The notes under the pieces are model-generated. The model searched no databases and was not told the origin of the DNA. It saw only the letters and a list, made by a program, of their open reading frames with translations. This document shows positions 44,869-53,898 of a stretch of DNA of 64,000 nt, piece by piece. The stretch is from an uncultured Gammaproteobacteria bacterium (GTDB lineage: Bacteria > Pseudomonadota > Gammaproteobacteria > DRLM01). Position 1 is the first letter of the stretch. The number at the start of each line of letters is the position of its first letter. Made by a program: the position numbers and the translations under genes. The stretch is from positions 1 to 64,000 of the forward strand of contig CAMYKQ010000028.1 in the NCBI GenBank assembly GCA_947259075.1, in the 5' to 3' direction.

Positions 44869-45633
44869 TTACATCGCCCCCACGGCCCGGGGCATCGCGG
44901 CTACGGCGAGTTCGCTGTGCAAATGAAATGCGCGCTGACGCCCATCCGGACCCCTCTCGCCCATCATCGCCTGCGCGAACTGCTCGAATAAATGTTCGAC
45001 ATTCACCAAAAAGGGGTAACGCTCGCCGCGATGCCAGGCGGGTTGACCCACCTGTTGCAAATCCAAGTGCAGCACATGACCGATCACTTTGGACAAGGCC
45101 TTAGTGATGAACATATACCAATGCTCCGCGCCACACTCACGGCTATAGGCAACCGCCGCGTCCAATAGGACGCGCAGTATCTCCGCGGTGCGTAAGCGTT
45201 TGCGCATTTCAACCCGCGCCTCATCCGCCGCCCTTGCGGCATTAAGCGGAGAGGCATCGCGCCCTTCGCAGGGCAGCGCTTGGCCTTGCAGGCGGCGACG
45301 GTAGTGACCGACCATGCACAAGCGGGAGATTTCCAATACCTGATTACAAGGGGGGCGCAGAGCCTCTTCAATTTCGGTGCGCGTTTCAATAGGCAAGACA
45401 TCGCCGTGAGGCAGGATCAGCCGCATCGCGGCAACCCAACGATTGTTCTCCCGCTCCCGCACTAAGAAATGGACCGCTTTGTCATCCCATTCGTCTTTTT
45501 CTTCGCCATCAGGAAATAAGGCGGGATCCTCATAACCCGTCTCCACGCAAAATACCTGATAACGAAGCTGATAATGTATACGGCGACTCCACTCATCGTC
45601 CGCCAGAACAACTTCAAAATGTTCCTTAGGCAT
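44869..45633 (-). CDS. PEP-CTERM/exosortase system-associated acyltransferase
   Basis: RYQVFCVETGYED...EEKDEWDDKAVHFLVRE...EISRLCMV architecture typical of this family (recalled). Confidence 0.85.
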   Translation of the reverse strand: MPKEHFEVVLADDEWSRRIHYQLRYQVFCVETGYEDPALFPDGEEKDEWDDKAVHFLVRERENNRWVAAMRLILPHGDVLPIETRTEIEEALRPPCNQVLEISRLCMVGHYRRRLQGQALPCEGRDASPLNAARAADEARVEMRKRLRTAEILRVLLDAAVAYSRECGAEHWYMFITKALSKVIGHVLHLDLQQVGQPAWHRGERYPFLVNVEHLFEQFAQAMMGERGPDGRQRAFHLHSELAVAAMPRAVGAM

Positions 45634-45761
45634 GATCGCTCCCTGGTCTTTCCCTTCGATGGGCCAATGACTCATTCCTTAATCTTCCCTACACTAAACA
45701 TGACCACTCGCTCCTCCCTGCCGCCGGAACCTTCCAAGCAAGAACTAATTAATAGGCGCCG

Positions 45762-46060
45762 AAAAACATGGCCGCATGGACCGGCCGGGCTGAACCCTGA
45801 ACCCGCGTAAAGTGGTAAACCCTCGAAAAGCGAATGGACAACACCGGCGGACGCCCCTGCGGTAACCACGGCCACGGGTCCGAAAAATGGGGGTAGGCAT
45901 ACTAAGGCGAAGGGTCAACGACACGGCCATATCACCGCCCATTATCATGCGAGCACGCCCGTTGATACAGACATCCCCGATGAGACCGGCGCAAGGTCGT
46001 AGAAGTGGATGCATCCTGCCAACTGTAGGCTCCTTACTTAAGCAATCACCAAGTGATCGC
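45762..46060 (-). ncRNA. Candidate sigma54/GlrR-controlled small RNA (or long 5' leader of the acyltransferase)
   Basis: Predicted TSS ~46060 from the sigma54 element at 46071-46086; 5' hairpin 46042-46060; weak GC hairpin plus T-run at 45762-45790; no convincing ORF. Confidence 0.4.
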
Positions 46061-46070
46061 ACACCGTATT

Positions 46071-46086
46071 AGCAAACCCTGTACCA
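46071..46086 (-). promoter_or_regulatory. Sigma54 (-24/-12) promoter candidate, minus strand
   Basis: TGGTACA-GGGT-TTGCT vs TGGCACG-N4-TTGCW; correct GG/GC spacing, 10/12 matches. Confidence 0.65.
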
Positions 46087-46150
46087 GCAAATGATTAGCT
46101 ATTAAATACAAACCGTTAAAACCACTCCGCCCTCACGCGCAACGGGACCG

Positions 46151-46168
46151 CGTCTCATAATGGAGACA
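46151..46168. promoter_or_regulatory. GlrR-like box 1 (CGTC-N10-GACA)
   Basis: cGTCtcataatggaGACA; 22-bp flanking unit repeated at box 2 with 2 mismatches. Confidence 0.6.
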
Positions 46169-46215
46169 ATATCCCGCAAGCGAAATTTATGTCAATGAAT
46201 CCACGCAATTTTACG

Positions 46216-46233
46216 CGTCTCCTTATGGAGACA
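46216..46233. promoter_or_regulatory. GlrR-like box 2 (CGTC-N10-GACA)
   Basis: cGTCtccttatggaGACA. Confidence 0.6.
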
Positions 46234-46290
46234 ATGTAAAAAAGGGGCGTATATTCATTGCCCAGGGTCATTCAGCCATGCTCTATACTG

Positions 46291-46308
46291 TGTCCATTTG
46301 CCGGGACA
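46291..46308. promoter_or_regulatory. GlrR-like box 3 (TGTC-N10-GACA, exact consensus)
   Basis: TGTCcatttgccggGACA. Confidence 0.6.
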
Positions 46309-46431
46309 GTCCGTCAGTAAATGGCACAGGGGCCAAGCCCGACGGGGGCCAATTAGATGCAATGCAGGCAATACAGGCCGGACCAGCGGCAATGGCGCCC
46401 GACACAACCCACTCACAAAACGGACAGATTG

Positions 46432-47940
46432 ATGTTGACGGGGACGAAACGCACGATGCCACCTACCTATACTCACCCCCCCAGCAAATCCCTGTATTTT
46501 TACGGCCCGAAATCTTTTCTGACTTTGGCCTTGATCGGCTTCGCCATCGTGGCTTTGCCACTGACCTTCGCCTTGATTTATGGCGCCATCCATGTCGACC
46601 GCCTTGCCGCGCAAAGTCAGGCCACGGTCTACAAAGCCGTACGAACCACGCAACACACGCGCATGCTGCTGGAACAGTTAACCGCGATGGAACGCACCGC
46701 CCGCCAATACCGCGTGCTGCGCGACGAAGTCCTGTTTCAAGCCTACGCCGAGAAACACCAGAACTTTCAGTTGACGGTCAATATGCTGTTAGATGCGCTA
46801 CACGATCCCGCCGTGGTCAGCCGGCTCCATGAGCTCGCGGAAAAGGAAAACCAGCAGTTTCTTTTACTCAGCAAACAGACGGCTAATTCCCCAGGCGCCG
46901 AGGAGGCCATTTCACAATTCATTGCGCTTACCGACCTAGCCCAAGGCGTCTTGACCAAGAGCAATCAAATCATCGACGACGAAGTCGCCGAAATGCACCA
47001 AGCCACCGAACGCACCCTAAAGGCATTTCTCTGGCTCGCTTTTTCCTTAGGACCCGCGGCGGTCGTCTTCGCGGGCTTATTCGTTGTGTTGCTGAATCGG
47101 CCCATCAAGCAGATCGACCAAGCAATCCGCCGGCTTGGGAATGGAGAATTCACCGCAGCCGTCACCGTCACCGGCCCGCGTGACATGGAATACCTCGGGC
47201 AGCGGCTCGAATGGTTACGCCAGCAGCTCATTGACCTCGAGAAACAAAAAACCAAATTTATTCGCCATGTCTCTCATGAACTCAAAACCCCGCTCACCGC
47301 CCTGCGCGAAGGCGCAGAACTACTCGCCGATGAAGTCGTGGGCGATTTGCACGGCGAACAAAAAGAAGTTGTCAGCATCCTCAAACAAAACAGCATCAAA
47401 TTACAAAAACTCATTGAGGATCTTCTGAATTTCAATCTTGCCGCCACGCCAGCCGCCGCCCATCACATCGAATCATTAAGACTGGATGAAATCATCGCTA
47501 CCGTGGCCAATGATCACAAGCTCAGCATGGTAAGCAAAGACATCCGCCTGAAAACCGAAATCGGCCCCACCACTATCGAAGGTGAACCGGAAAAACTCAG
47601 AGTAATCGTCGATAATTTACTGTCCAATGCCGTAAAATACTCGCCCCACGGCGGCACCATTCGTCTCACATTGCGCGAGCAAGGCAAGCACGTTATTCTC
47701 GACGTGCGTGATTCCGGCCCCGGCATCGACCCCGAGGAATCACCCAAAGTTTTTGATGCGTTTTACCAAGGGAAGGCACCCATCGATGGTTTTATTAAAG
47801 GCTCCGGCCTAGGCCTATCAATCGCGCGCGAACACGCGCTCGCCCATAATGGGCGGATCGAGGCCATACCCGACACCAGCGGCGCCCACCTGCGCGTCAT
47901 CCTCCCTCACAAACAAGCCGACCATGTTCATGCCGCATAA
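46432..47940 (+). CDS. glrK: Sensor histidine kinase, GlrK/QseE-like (start uncertain: 46432 or 46456)
   Basis: FIRHVSHELKTPLTALREGAELLADEVVGDLHGEQKEVVSILKQNSIKLQKLIEDLLNFN closely resembles E. coli GlrK; HAMP and HATPase present. Confidence 0.88.
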   Translation: MLTGTKRTMPPTYTHPPSKSLYFYGPKSFLTLALIGFAIVALPLTFALIYGAIHVDRLAAQSQATVYKAVRTTQHTRMLLEQLTAMERTARQYRVLRDEVLFQAYAEKHQNFQLTVNMLLDALHDPAVVSRLHELAEKENQQFLLLSKQTANSPGAEEAISQFIALTDLAQGVLTKSNQIIDDEVAEMHQATERTLKAFLWLAFSLGPAAVVFAGLFVVLLNRPIKQIDQAIRRLGNGEFTAAVTVTGPRDMEYLGQRLEWLRQQLIDLEKQKTKFIRHVSHELKTPLTALREGAELLADEVVGDLHGEQKEVVSILKQNSIKLQKLIEDLLNFNLAATPAAAHHIESLRLDEIIATVANDHKLSMVSKDIRLKTEIGPTTIEGEPEKLRVIVDNLLSNAVKYSPHGGTIRLTLREQGKHVILDVRDSGPGIDPEESPKVFDAFYQGKAPIDGFIKGSGLGLSIAREHALAHNGRIEAIPDTSGAHLRVILPHKQADHVHAA

Positions 47941-48523
47941 TTGGCGAATCATTTCCATCGGACTCATCAGCCTCGGCGTCAGCGCCTGCGGGATGATGCC
48001 GCCGCAAAAACAAGCCACCGGAAATAATACATCGACACCCTCGGCGCCGGTGGAGGCACGCGAAATAAGCGCTTCCGAACTGGCTGCCTTGGCAACCATA
48101 CGCTGGTGGCTGGATTATCAGCAAAGCATTAGCACGCAGACGCAAAAACTGACCGCCGCCGAATACAAGAGCGCCGAATCCAGCTTGATTATGGACGCTT
48201 CTCTACATAACCGCCTGCGTATGATTACGCTACTCAGCGTACGTGGCACACCCTTCCACAATCCGGAACGGGCGCTGAAAATTCTGGATGAAATCATCGC
48301 CGATCCGCACACACAGTCCAAACTCATCCGCGACAGCGCTTCCTTGGCGAAGGCGAACATCCTTAGTTCACAGCAGGATCAGAAAAAAATCCAAGCGCTT
48401 ATGGAAAATATAAAAGAGTTACAGAACAATAATACCGCCATCCAAAATCAATTGGATGCCTTGAAGGAAATCGAACGAAGCATTTATGAACGCCGAAAAG
48501 TCGAGGTGACAAACAAGCAATGA
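47924..48523 (+). CDS. QseG-like lipoprotein
   Basis: Lipobox SLGVSACG; coiled C-terminus; lies between kinase and regulator as in glrK-qseG-glrR. Confidence 0.75.
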   Translation: MFMPHNWRIISIGLISLGVSACGMMPPQKQATGNNTSTPSAPVEAREISASELAALATIRWWLDYQQSISTQTQKLTAAEYKSAESSLIMDASLHNRLRMITLLSVRGTPFHNPERALKILDEIIADPHTQSKLIRDSASLAKANILSSQQDQKKIQALMENIKELQNNNTAIQNQLDALKEIERSIYERRKVEVTNKQ

Positions 48524-49887
48524 ACCGCGCAAAAGGAAAAGTTTTACTCATTGATGACGATCCGGGCCTGCTGCGGCTCATCTCCATCCGGCTAAACACG
48601 GCCGGTTATGATGTAATCCCCATGGACAGCGGCGAACGCGCGCTGGCGCAGTTTCCCATCCACCGCCCGCAGGTGGTGGTCACCGATCTCCGCATGAACG
48701 GCATGGATGGTATGGCGGTGTTCGATGCTATTCATCAACGTTACCCCATGGTCCCGGTCATCATCCTAACCGCGCACGGCACCATTCCCGACGCGGTCAA
48801 TGCCACCAAGCGCGGCGTGTTCGGCTTCCTCACCAAACCCTTCGAGAGCAAGGCGCTGCTCGATCAAATCAACAAAGCCATCAGCATTAACGGTAACGGC
48901 CAGAGCGCGGAAAGCCAGGGAGGGAGCGATGGCGCCTGGCGGCAGGAAATCATCTCGCGCAATCCCGCCATCGAAGATGTGCTGCATCAGGCACGCCTGG
49001 TGGCGGAAAGCGAGATCAGCGTCTTTATTCATGGAGAAAGCGGCACGGGCAAAGACCTGCTGGCGCGCGCGATTCACAAAGCCAGTCCGCGTCACGCGCA
49101 ATCCTTCGTCGCCATCAATTGCAGCGCCATCCCCGAACCCTTACTGGAATCCGAGCTGTTCGGCCACAGCAAAGGTTCCTTCACCGGCGCCACCCGCAAT
49201 CACAAGGGCTTGTTCCAAGCCGCGGACAAAGGCACTTTATTTCTCGATGAAATTGGTGACATGCCGCTGTCATTGCAAGCGAAGTTACTACGGGTATTGC
49301 AGGACAGAGAGGTGCGCCCGGTAGGTTCCACCGAATCGGTGAAGGTGGACGTGCGCGTCATTTCCGCCACGCATCGCAATCTCGAACGCGCGATGACCGA
49401 GGGACAGTTCCGCGAGGATCTGTATTACCGTCTCAATGTCGTCGCGCTGGAAATCCCCACGCTGGCACAACGCCGCGAGGACATCCCGCTGCTCGCCGGC
49501 CATTTCCTCAGTCTCCTCGCCGTGAAAAACCGGCGCGAGATCGAAGGATTTTCACCGGAGGCGATGGAGCTGTTAGTGGGCGCGCCCTGGCCGGGCAATG
49601 TGCGGCAATTACTCAACGTCGTCGAACAAGTAGTCGCCTTATCCACCACCCCCATCGTGCCCGCCTCTTTGGTCAACAAGGCGCTGCGCAATGAATCGGG
49701 CGACATCCTGGCCTTCGCCGACGCCCGTAACCGTTTCGAACGAGATTATTTGGTGCAACTCCTGCAAATCACCCAAGGCAGCGTCACGCAGGCCGCGCGC
49801 CTGGCGAAGCGCAATCGCACGGAATTCTACAAACTATTACGGCGCCATCATTTGGAACCCGGCCTATTTAAAGAAGCGGCGGGTTAA
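48520..49887 (+). CDS. glrR: Sigma54-dependent response regulator, GlrR/QseF-like
   Basis: LLIDDDPGLLRLISIRL, VVTDLRMNGMDGMAVF, ILTAHGTIPDAV; AAA+ GESGTGKDLLARAIH, ELFGHSKGSFTGA (GAFTGA variant GSFTGA), C-terminal HTH. Confidence 0.93.
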   Translation: MNRAKGKVLLIDDDPGLLRLISIRLNTAGYDVIPMDSGERALAQFPIHRPQVVVTDLRMNGMDGMAVFDAIHQRYPMVPVIILTAHGTIPDAVNATKRGVFGFLTKPFESKALLDQINKAISINGNGQSAESQGGSDGAWRQEIISRNPAIEDVLHQARLVAESEISVFIHGESGTGKDLLARAIHKASPRHAQSFVAINCSAIPEPLLESELFGHSKGSFTGATRNHKGLFQAADKGTLFLDEIGDMPLSLQAKLLRVLQDREVRPVGSTESVKVDVRVISATHRNLERAMTEGQFREDLYYRLNVVALEIPTLAQRREDIPLLAGHFLSLLAVKNRREIEGFSPEAMELLVGAPWPGNVRQLLNVVEQVVALSTTPIVPASLVNKALRNESGDILAFADARNRFERDYLVQLLQITQGSVTQAARLAKRNRTEFYKLLRRHHLEPGLFKEAAG

Positions 49888-51861: not shown

Positions 51862-51877
51862 TGGCCTGATAGTTGCA
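51862..51877 (+). promoter_or_regulatory. Sigma54 promoter candidate upstream of prkA operon
   Basis: TGGCCTG-ATAG-TTGCA; correct -24/-12 spacing, 10/12 matches; ~100 bp from prkA start. Confidence 0.65.
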
Positions 51878-51975: not shown

Positions 51976-53898
51976 ATGAGCATATTCGATAGTTATCAGG
52001 CGCGATACGAAGGAACCCGCGAAGAAGAGATAACGCTTCACGAATACCTCGAGATTTGCAAGAAAGATCCTTCCGCTTACGCTACCGCGGCCGAGCGCCT
52101 ACTCATGGCTATAGGCGAACCGGAACTAGTGGACACCAGCAAGGATTCCCGCCTTAGCCGCATCTTCGCTAACAAGGTGATTAAGATCTACCCCGCCTTC
52201 CGCGATTTTTATGGAATGGAAGAGACCATTGAGCAGATCGTCGCGTTCTTCCGCCATGCGGCACAAGGCCTAGAAGAGAAAAAACAAATTCTCTATCTGC
52301 TCGGACCACCGGGCGGCGGCAAATCCTCCTTGGCGGAAAAACTCAAATCGCTGATGGAGCACATCCCTTTCTACGCCATTAAGGATTCCCCGGTAAACGA
52401 GTCTCCTTTGGGATTGTTTTCGCGGGAAGAAGACGGCTCTATTCTCCAAGAAGACTACGGCATTGAACAGCGCTATCTCGGCAAAATCATGTCGCCTTGG
52501 GCGGTCAAACGCCTGCATGAACATAACGGCGACATCACCAAGTTCAAGGTGGTGAAGCGCATGCCATCCATCCTGCGCCAGATCGCCGTAGCTAAAACCG
52601 AACCCGGCGATGAAAATAACCAAGATATTTCCAGCCTGGTGGGCAAGGTCGACATCCGTAAGCTCGAACAATTCTCGCAAGACGATCCCGATGCGTATAG
52701 CTACTCCGGCGGTCTGTGCCTCGCCAATCAAGGTATGCTGGAATTCGTCGAGATGTTCAAAGCGCCGATAAAAGTATTGCACCCGCTACTGACCGCTACG
52801 CAAGAGAGCAATTACAAAGGCACTGAAGGTTTCCCCGCCATTCCTTTCGACGGCATTATCCTCGCGCACTCCAATGAATCGGAATGGCAAGCCTTCCGTA
52901 ACAACAAGAACAACGAGGCCTTCCTTGACCGCATCTACATCGTCAAGGTGCCTTATTGCCTGCGCGTCCACGAAGAGATGAAAATCTACGAAAAATTGCT
53001 GACCAATTCATCGCTGTCGAGCGCGCCCTGCGCGCCCGGCACGCTGGAAATGATGGGACAATTCGCAATCTTGTCTCGCATCAAAGATCCGGAAAATTCC
53101 AGCATCTATTCGAAGATGCGGGTCTATGATGGTGAGAATCTTAAAGATGTCGACCCGAAGTCCAAGTCTTATCAGGAATACCGCGACTTCGCTGGCCCGG
53201 ACGAAGGCATGTCCGGCCTCTCCACCCGCTTCGCATTCAAGATTCTCTCCAAGGTCTTTAATTACGACCACTCAGAGATCGCCGCCAACCCAGTGCATCT
53301 GCTGTACATCCTCGAGCAGCAGATCGAACAGGAACAATTTCAACCCGAAGTGCAGGAGCGCTACCTCTCCTTCCTTAAAGGTTATCTGGCGCCGCGTTAT
53401 GCGGAATTCATCGGCAAAGAGATTCAAACCGCCTATCTCGAATCTTATTCGGAGTTCGGTCAAAACATCTTCGACCGCTACGTCACTTACGCTGATTATT
53501 GGATTCAAGATTCGGAATACCGCGACCCGGATACGGGTGAATTCCTTGATCGCGCCTCGCTGAACGCCGAATTGGAGAAGATCGAGAAACCGGCCGGCAT
53601 CAGCAATCCAAAAGATTTTCGTAACGAGATCGTCAACTTCGTTCTACGGGCACGGGCTAATAACGCCGGGAAGAACCCATCATGGACCAGTTACGAAAAA
53701 CTCCGTGAAGTCATCGAGAAAAAGATGTTCTCGACGACAGAGGATCTGCTGCCGGTGATTTCCTTCAACGCCAAATCGACGTCCGATGACAAGAAGAAAC
53801 ACGAGGAATTCGTCAATCGCATGGTAAGCAAAGGCTACACTCCGAAACAGGTACGCCTGCTGTGTGAATGGCACTTACGCACACGGAAGTCATCTTAA
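51976..53898 (+). CDS. prkA: PrkA serine protein kinase (YeaG family)
   Basis: [23 protein letters not shown]; full-length 640 aa. Confidence 0.97.

Follow-up and report, generated by a model that had tools for sequence, protein, structure and literature searches.

Introduction

Descriptions of the envelope-sensing system formed by the sensor kinase GlrK and the response regulator GlrR (QseEF) have dealt mainly with Enterobacteriaceae and the small RNA GlmY. At Escherichia coli glmY, GlrR/QseF is known to act together with IHF, and it also activates the sigma54-dependent rpoE P2 promoter of E. coli (PMC6075780). A second system, PrsK/PrsR, exerts sigma54-dependent control over PEP-CTERM genes (PMC1569441).

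Here we analyze a 64,000-nucleotide stretch of DNA (the window) from the 3.10-Mb, 65-contig genome of an uncultured gammaproteobacterium. A gap at 45634-46455 separates a leftward gene for a TIGR03694 acyltransferase from a rightward glrK-qseG-glrR operon (Table 1). The locus resembles the E. coli glmY promoter in having boxes of the same form (GTCGCTTTCTGGCGAC and GTCTCTTTTTAGCGAC, 63 bp apart in E. coli) with a sigma54 site downstream, in lying next to glrK-qseG-glrR, and in the possible presence of a sigma70 promoter there. It differs in that two boxes are supported rather than the three of glmY, in that the promoter is divergent from glrK, and in its product, which is probably an acyltransferase mRNA and not a small RNA. 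Like rpoE P2, it would have a protein-coding gene as the target of this regulator; the gene behind rpoE P2 is a different one and is not beside glrK. The likeness to PrsK/PrsR lies in sigma54 control tied to an exosortase system.

TABLE 1 Features of the locus and of the contig C15 RNA (window positions unless a locus is named)
Feature	Position	Strand	Remarks
Exosortase-associated acyltransferase gene (TIGR03694)	44869-45633	-	Predicted target; start set at MPKEHFEV by comparison with G001 and G003
Predicted acyltransferase mRNA leader, 427 nt	45634-46060	-	Start is a prediction
sigma54 -24/-12 element TGGTACAGGGTTTGCT	46071-46086	-	65 nt from proximal box; predicted start ~46060
Proximal predicted GlrR box GTCTCATAATGGAGAC	46152-46167		65 bp from distal box; followed by A
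sigma70-like TTGACA-18-TATTGT	46166-46195	-	Between boxes; 10/12 consensus matches
Distal predicted GlrR box GTCTCCTTATGGAGAC	46217-46232		Minus strand reads TGTCTCCATAAGGAGACG; followed by A
Third TGTC-N10-GACA match TGTCCATTTGCCGGGACA	46291-46308		Exact pattern; named in first-pass annotation
glrK, sensor kinase	46456-47940	+	HAMP, HisKA, HATPase_c; start from comparison with G001
qseG-like lipoprotein gene	47924-48523	+	Lipobox VSAC; placed between glrK and glrR
glrR, sigma54 enhancer-binding response regulator	48520-49887	+	NCBIfam GlrR PRK15115, 621.5 bits, below cut-off of 763
Putative C15 RNA, 162 nt	L021 4402-4563	-	Follows the second of the two exact box pairs in the genome, 65-bp spacing

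Results and Discussion

Genes flanking the gap

The acyltransferase scores 145.1 bits against TIGR03694, above the curated cut-off of 111.95, which is also exceeded by genes of four other genomes discussed below (G003, G004, G235, and G345). The rightward operon (46456-49887) lies divergent from the boxes and the promoter, an arrangement reported in the first-pass annotation and confirmed here. Orthologues of its GlrK are 81%, 57%, and 55% identical in the relatives G001, G003, and G004, respectively. The qseG-like product had no family match in profile searches and shows weak blastp similarity (28 to 29%) to the gene in the corresponding position of two further genomes. GlrR shares 55% identity with its E. 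coli counterpart, including an unchanged NRTEFYKLL in the DNA-binding region, and at 376.5 bits it falls short of the TIGR02915 cut-off (502.6) and is not a member of that PEP-CTERM regulator family. An exosortase gene is present in the genome.

A box pair precedes a perfect sigma54 element

Both boxes are GTCTC-N6-GAGAC palindromes, separated by a gap of 49 nt, and both match the E. coli TGTN12ACA/TGTC-N10-GACA form except for one end base (TGTC...GACG). Single boxes are unremarkable: two GTCNC-N6-GNGAC sites occur in the window versus 0.94 expected, which is not significant, and TGTC-N10-GACA occurs 31 times in the genome versus 21 times for a reversed-pattern control. The exact palindrome, by contrast, occurs at four places in 3.1 Mb (reversed control, 0). 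These four form two pairs, one in the window and one on contig C15, each with its boxes exactly 65 bp apart and a perfect sigma54 element beyond them; the box pair is therefore not a product of chance. Three boxes had originally been claimed, of which the two listed as proximal and distal stand. The match at 46291 does fit TGTC-N10-GACA exactly, as described, yet such matches occur at chance level and comparison lends it no support, a third box being no better than in shuffles across the 21 loci introduced below (53 versus 54 mismatches). It is probably a chance match.

The sigma54 element is the only perfect TGGYAYR-N4-TTGCW in the window, which bears out the minus-strand promoter proposed earlier, and its spacing from the proximal box agrees with the enhancer range then suggested. 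The hairpin noted at the predicted transcript start, GCGATCAC-TTG-GTGATTGC, is also present. An IHF-like site between the boxes is weak in the window (3 mismatches). The sigma70-like stretch sits in a 72-nt segment that is 82% identical in G001, the sole long conserved part of the gap, and is possibly a basal sigma70 promoter.

Conservation of the locus in relatives

The divergent acyltransferase-glrK order is kept in G001, G003, and G004. Of these, G003 carries both boxes together with a sigma54 element; in G004 there is a single box, and the sigma54 element has one mismatch. In G001, which belongs to the same genus, the distal box and the sigma70-like stretch are kept, the proximal box is degenerate, and no sigma54 element is recognizable. 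Box and promoter conservation, which had been named as a check, thus holds in G003, holds in part in G004, and for the promoter fails in G001, so not every relative keeps the promoter.

The boxes could mainly serve to autoregulate the rightward glrK operon, with the leftward sigma54 match being incidental. They do lie in the shared gap, 220 to 300 nt from glrK, and the lack of a clear sigma54 element in G001 would fit. However, no rightward sigma54 element was found near the pair, and the window, G003, and G004 all have the element on the side of the boxes that is distal to glrK, with helical spacing (see below) in the window and G003. We regard autoregulation as very unlikely.

The two-box element recurs, mostly next to glrK/glrR, across Gammaproteobacteria

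We searched 369 gammaproteobacterial genomes with a relaxed pair pattern (GTCNC-N6-GNGAC twice, gap of 46 to 52 nt) and found it in 21, versus 8 for a reversed-pattern control. Seventeen loci fall outside the window's family, and 13 of them (L089 to L099, L101, and L103) have glrK and/or glrR homologues within the 6 to 9 kb fetched. Among the other four, L102 carries two acyltransferase genes on a short contig, and L100 and L104 show no link; L074 was seen over 3 kb only. Measurements were made on 21 loci, 7 from the window's family and 14 others (L074, L100, and L104 being left out), each oriented toward its own sigma54 site.

Within 220 nt of the proximal box, 20 of the 21 oriented loci have a sigma54-like site versus 0.066 expected per 220 nt, a figure somewhat favored because the loci were chosen for, and turned toward, these sites. 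The distances in these 20 loci cluster at 63 to 67, 74 to 76, 85 to 87, and 105 nt and follow the helical repeat (R = 0.79, P ~ 5e-5 versus uniform or jittered distances); the 65 nt of the window fits this series, and the ~90 nt of E. coli glmY falls outside it. The gap between boxes is 49 to 52 nt in all 21 loci (starts 65 to 68 bp apart), a narrowness partly built in, since the search fixed the range; gaps of 46 to 48 nt were allowed yet are absent from the oriented set. An IHF-like site lies between the boxes, usually 16 to 18 nt in (32 mismatches versus 51 in shuffles, reached by 0 of 300; 21 loci). Because the loci share descent as well as the search pattern, P values are guides only. The boxes follow a 42-box logo, (C/T)TGTC(G/T)CC-N4-GG(C/A)GACA, which the distal box of the window fits.

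Given the glrK/glrR linkage, the spacing, the IHF-like site, the likeness to E. coli glmY, and the identity of the adjacent GlrR, the boxes are very probably sites for GlrR. A different enhancer-binding protein might be thought to use them, for example the exosortase/PEP-CTERM regulator PrsR, as the neighboring gene is exosortase associated and the genome has an exosortase. That reading is highly improbable: 13 of the 17 distant pair loci adjoin glrK/glrR, the E. coli glmY boxes share the same form, and, unlike in the PrsK/PrsR system, the adjacent regulator scores as GlrR and not as TIGR02915.

From the boxes, promoter, spacing, conservation, and gene order, we consider it likely that 46071-46232 is a GlrR-dependent sigma54 promoter of the TIGR03694 acyltransferase gene with a 427-nt leader. 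Phosphorylated GlrR, made from the divergent operon, would bind the two palindromic boxes, and DNA bending, probably by IHF, would bring it to sigma54 polymerase at the -24/-12 element. Transcription would then run leftward from ~46060 through the leader into the acyltransferase gene. The control element occurs a second time in this genome, on contig C15, where it would precede a separate small RNA.

The transcript from the window promoter is probably an acyltransferase mRNA

The first-pass annotation had favored a GlmY-type small RNA at this site, which would be ~290 nt long and end at a weak hairpin (45786-45770). GlrR does drive glmY in enterics (PMC6075780), and two of the features then described are there: about 290 nt (put at ~300) without a convincing ORF, and a GC hairpin of 5 pairs followed by a T-run. 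The hairpin is at chance level, however, with 1 such terminator found versus 1.3 in shuffles. The leader folds like shuffled sequence (z = -0.05 over 303 nt, -0.6, and 0.0), against z scores of -3.6 to -5.6 for GlmY and C15 RNAs. Its sequence is unconserved in three relatives: no alignable counterpart was found in G003 or G004, and the alignment with G001 is confined to the 72-nt box stretch. An Rfam search of the gap gave no match (RF00128 and RF00083, none up to E = 10), and the pairing with GlmS mRNA put forward as a check gave glmS complementarity equal to that of shuffles. A small RNA at the window site was rejected on fold, terminator, conservation, and Rfam search, and we consider such an RNA very unlikely to be the product. 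A 105-codon ORF in the leader (from GTG, 45745-46062) was likewise rejected, as it has no Pfam match and is not conserved.

What the same annotation offered as an alternative, a long regulated leader of the acyltransferase, fared better, the gap leading into the TIGR03694 gene. Two further families have TIGR03694 genes behind the same element. In G235 (238.5 bits) the element directly follows glrR and is followed in turn by the gene, and in G345 (186.9 bits) a perfect sigma54 site and a 147-nt leader precede it. The window leader is longer than those of these two genomes (~145 to 170 nt). Because the leader is featureless, the gene order is kept, TIGR03694 genes follow the element in G345 and G235, and the genome has an exosortase, we take the acyltransferase as the predicted target. 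The best reading of the site is thus as an acyltransferase promoter and not as a gene for a GlmY-type RNA.

A conserved putative small RNA follows the second box pair, on contig C15

The idea of a GlrR-driven small RNA in this nonenteric genome does fit contig C15. There, the second exact pair and its sigma54 element point into a gap between genes for an M90 peptidase (MtfA-like) and a DUF1631 protein. A strong terminator, ATAGCGCTGTC-TTCG-GACAGCGCTATTTTTTT, ends the putative transcript 162 nt from its predicted start. The RNA folds far better than shuffles (z = -5.5/-5.6; homologues in G001 to G004, -3.6 to -5.0) and is conserved in five genomes (its own and G001 to G004) of three genera. The GG-N10-GC of the sigma54 element is kept in all five, and exact or near-exact box pairs precede the RNA in four, the pair being degenerate in G003. 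The block GTTCATCCCTCCTTG(A/T)GCGA is invariant in the five but for one base and forms, in four of five minimum-energy folds, a small hairpin whose CCCUCC (anti-Shine-Dalgarno) loop contains UCCCUCCU. A GlrR-driven small RNA thus probably exists in the window's genome, on C15.

This RNA resembles GlmY (RF00128) and GlmZ in promoter logic, length (162 versus 184 nt), and similarly strong fold. It is unlike them in its invariant CCCUCC block and in not lying beside glrK. It also has no match to RF00128 or RF00083 up to E = 10, and its pairing with the glmS leader equals that of shuffles. Outside the window's family it was not found among the collections searched; the seed is absent from the window, and two matches to it, one in Rhodoferax without a terminator and one unrelated match at class level, were taken as chance. 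When GlrR is active, the C-rich loop may cover Shine-Dalgarno sequences; this mechanism is weak because searches for targets complementary to the seed gave no gene that different genomes have in common.

Separately, a 128-aa PilZ-like ORF just under the Pfam cut-off (L115, on contig C60 of the same genome) has a Shine-Dalgarno region, CAAGGAGGGATG, with 12 nt complementary to the C15 RNA loop. The complementarity was seen in this genome only and in none of the relatives.

Predicted targets of the element differ between lineages

Genes adjacent to the element differ by lineage and comprise exported EF-hand proteins, short lipoproteins, TIGR03694 enzymes, and terminated predicted transcripts with no convincing ORF. 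Small exported EF-hand genes, Pfam confirmed in two of seven cases and judged from sequence in the other five, directly follow the pair and sigma54 site in G129, G279, G121, G067, G194, G259, and contig C35 of G003 (loci L089, L091, L093, L096, L098, and L103, with L088 being the one on C35 of G003). Most of these loci are beside glrK/glrR, and L088 belongs to the window's own family. Short lipoproteins are next to the element in G058, G340, and G145. Predicted transcripts with good terminators and no convincing ORF follow glrR in G136 (L101, ~181 nt) and G074 (L092, ~330 nt) and are possibly further GlrR-driven RNAs. As in E. coli, most of the neighboring targets would have envelope functions.

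We lean slightly toward a broader reading in which, outside enterics, GlrK/GlrR is a class-wide envelope regulator working through a fixed two-box sigma54 element, with one set of targets exchanged for another from lineage to lineage. These targets would be small lipoproteins, acyltransferases associated with exosortases, exported EF-hand proteins, and, in the window's family, a small RNA of the anti-Shine-Dalgarno type that is independent of GlmY/GlmZ. What E. coli has with GlmY would then be one local outcome. No such GlrK/GlrR targets outside Enterobacteriaceae were described in the open-access literature searched. The two-box signature now proposes targets across Gammaproteobacteria, so that the ancestral role of GlrK/GlrR becomes testable; it connects the system with exported EF-hand proteins and with acyltransferases, and it indicates a previously undescribed candidate small RNA under the same control.

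Elsewhere in the window, a one-mismatch sigma54 element (TGGCCTGATAGTTGCA, 51862-51877, plus strand), a match at chance level for a stretch of this size, lies ~100 nt before a PrkA-type kinase gene (51976-53898). The yeaGH genes of E. coli are sigma54 dependent.
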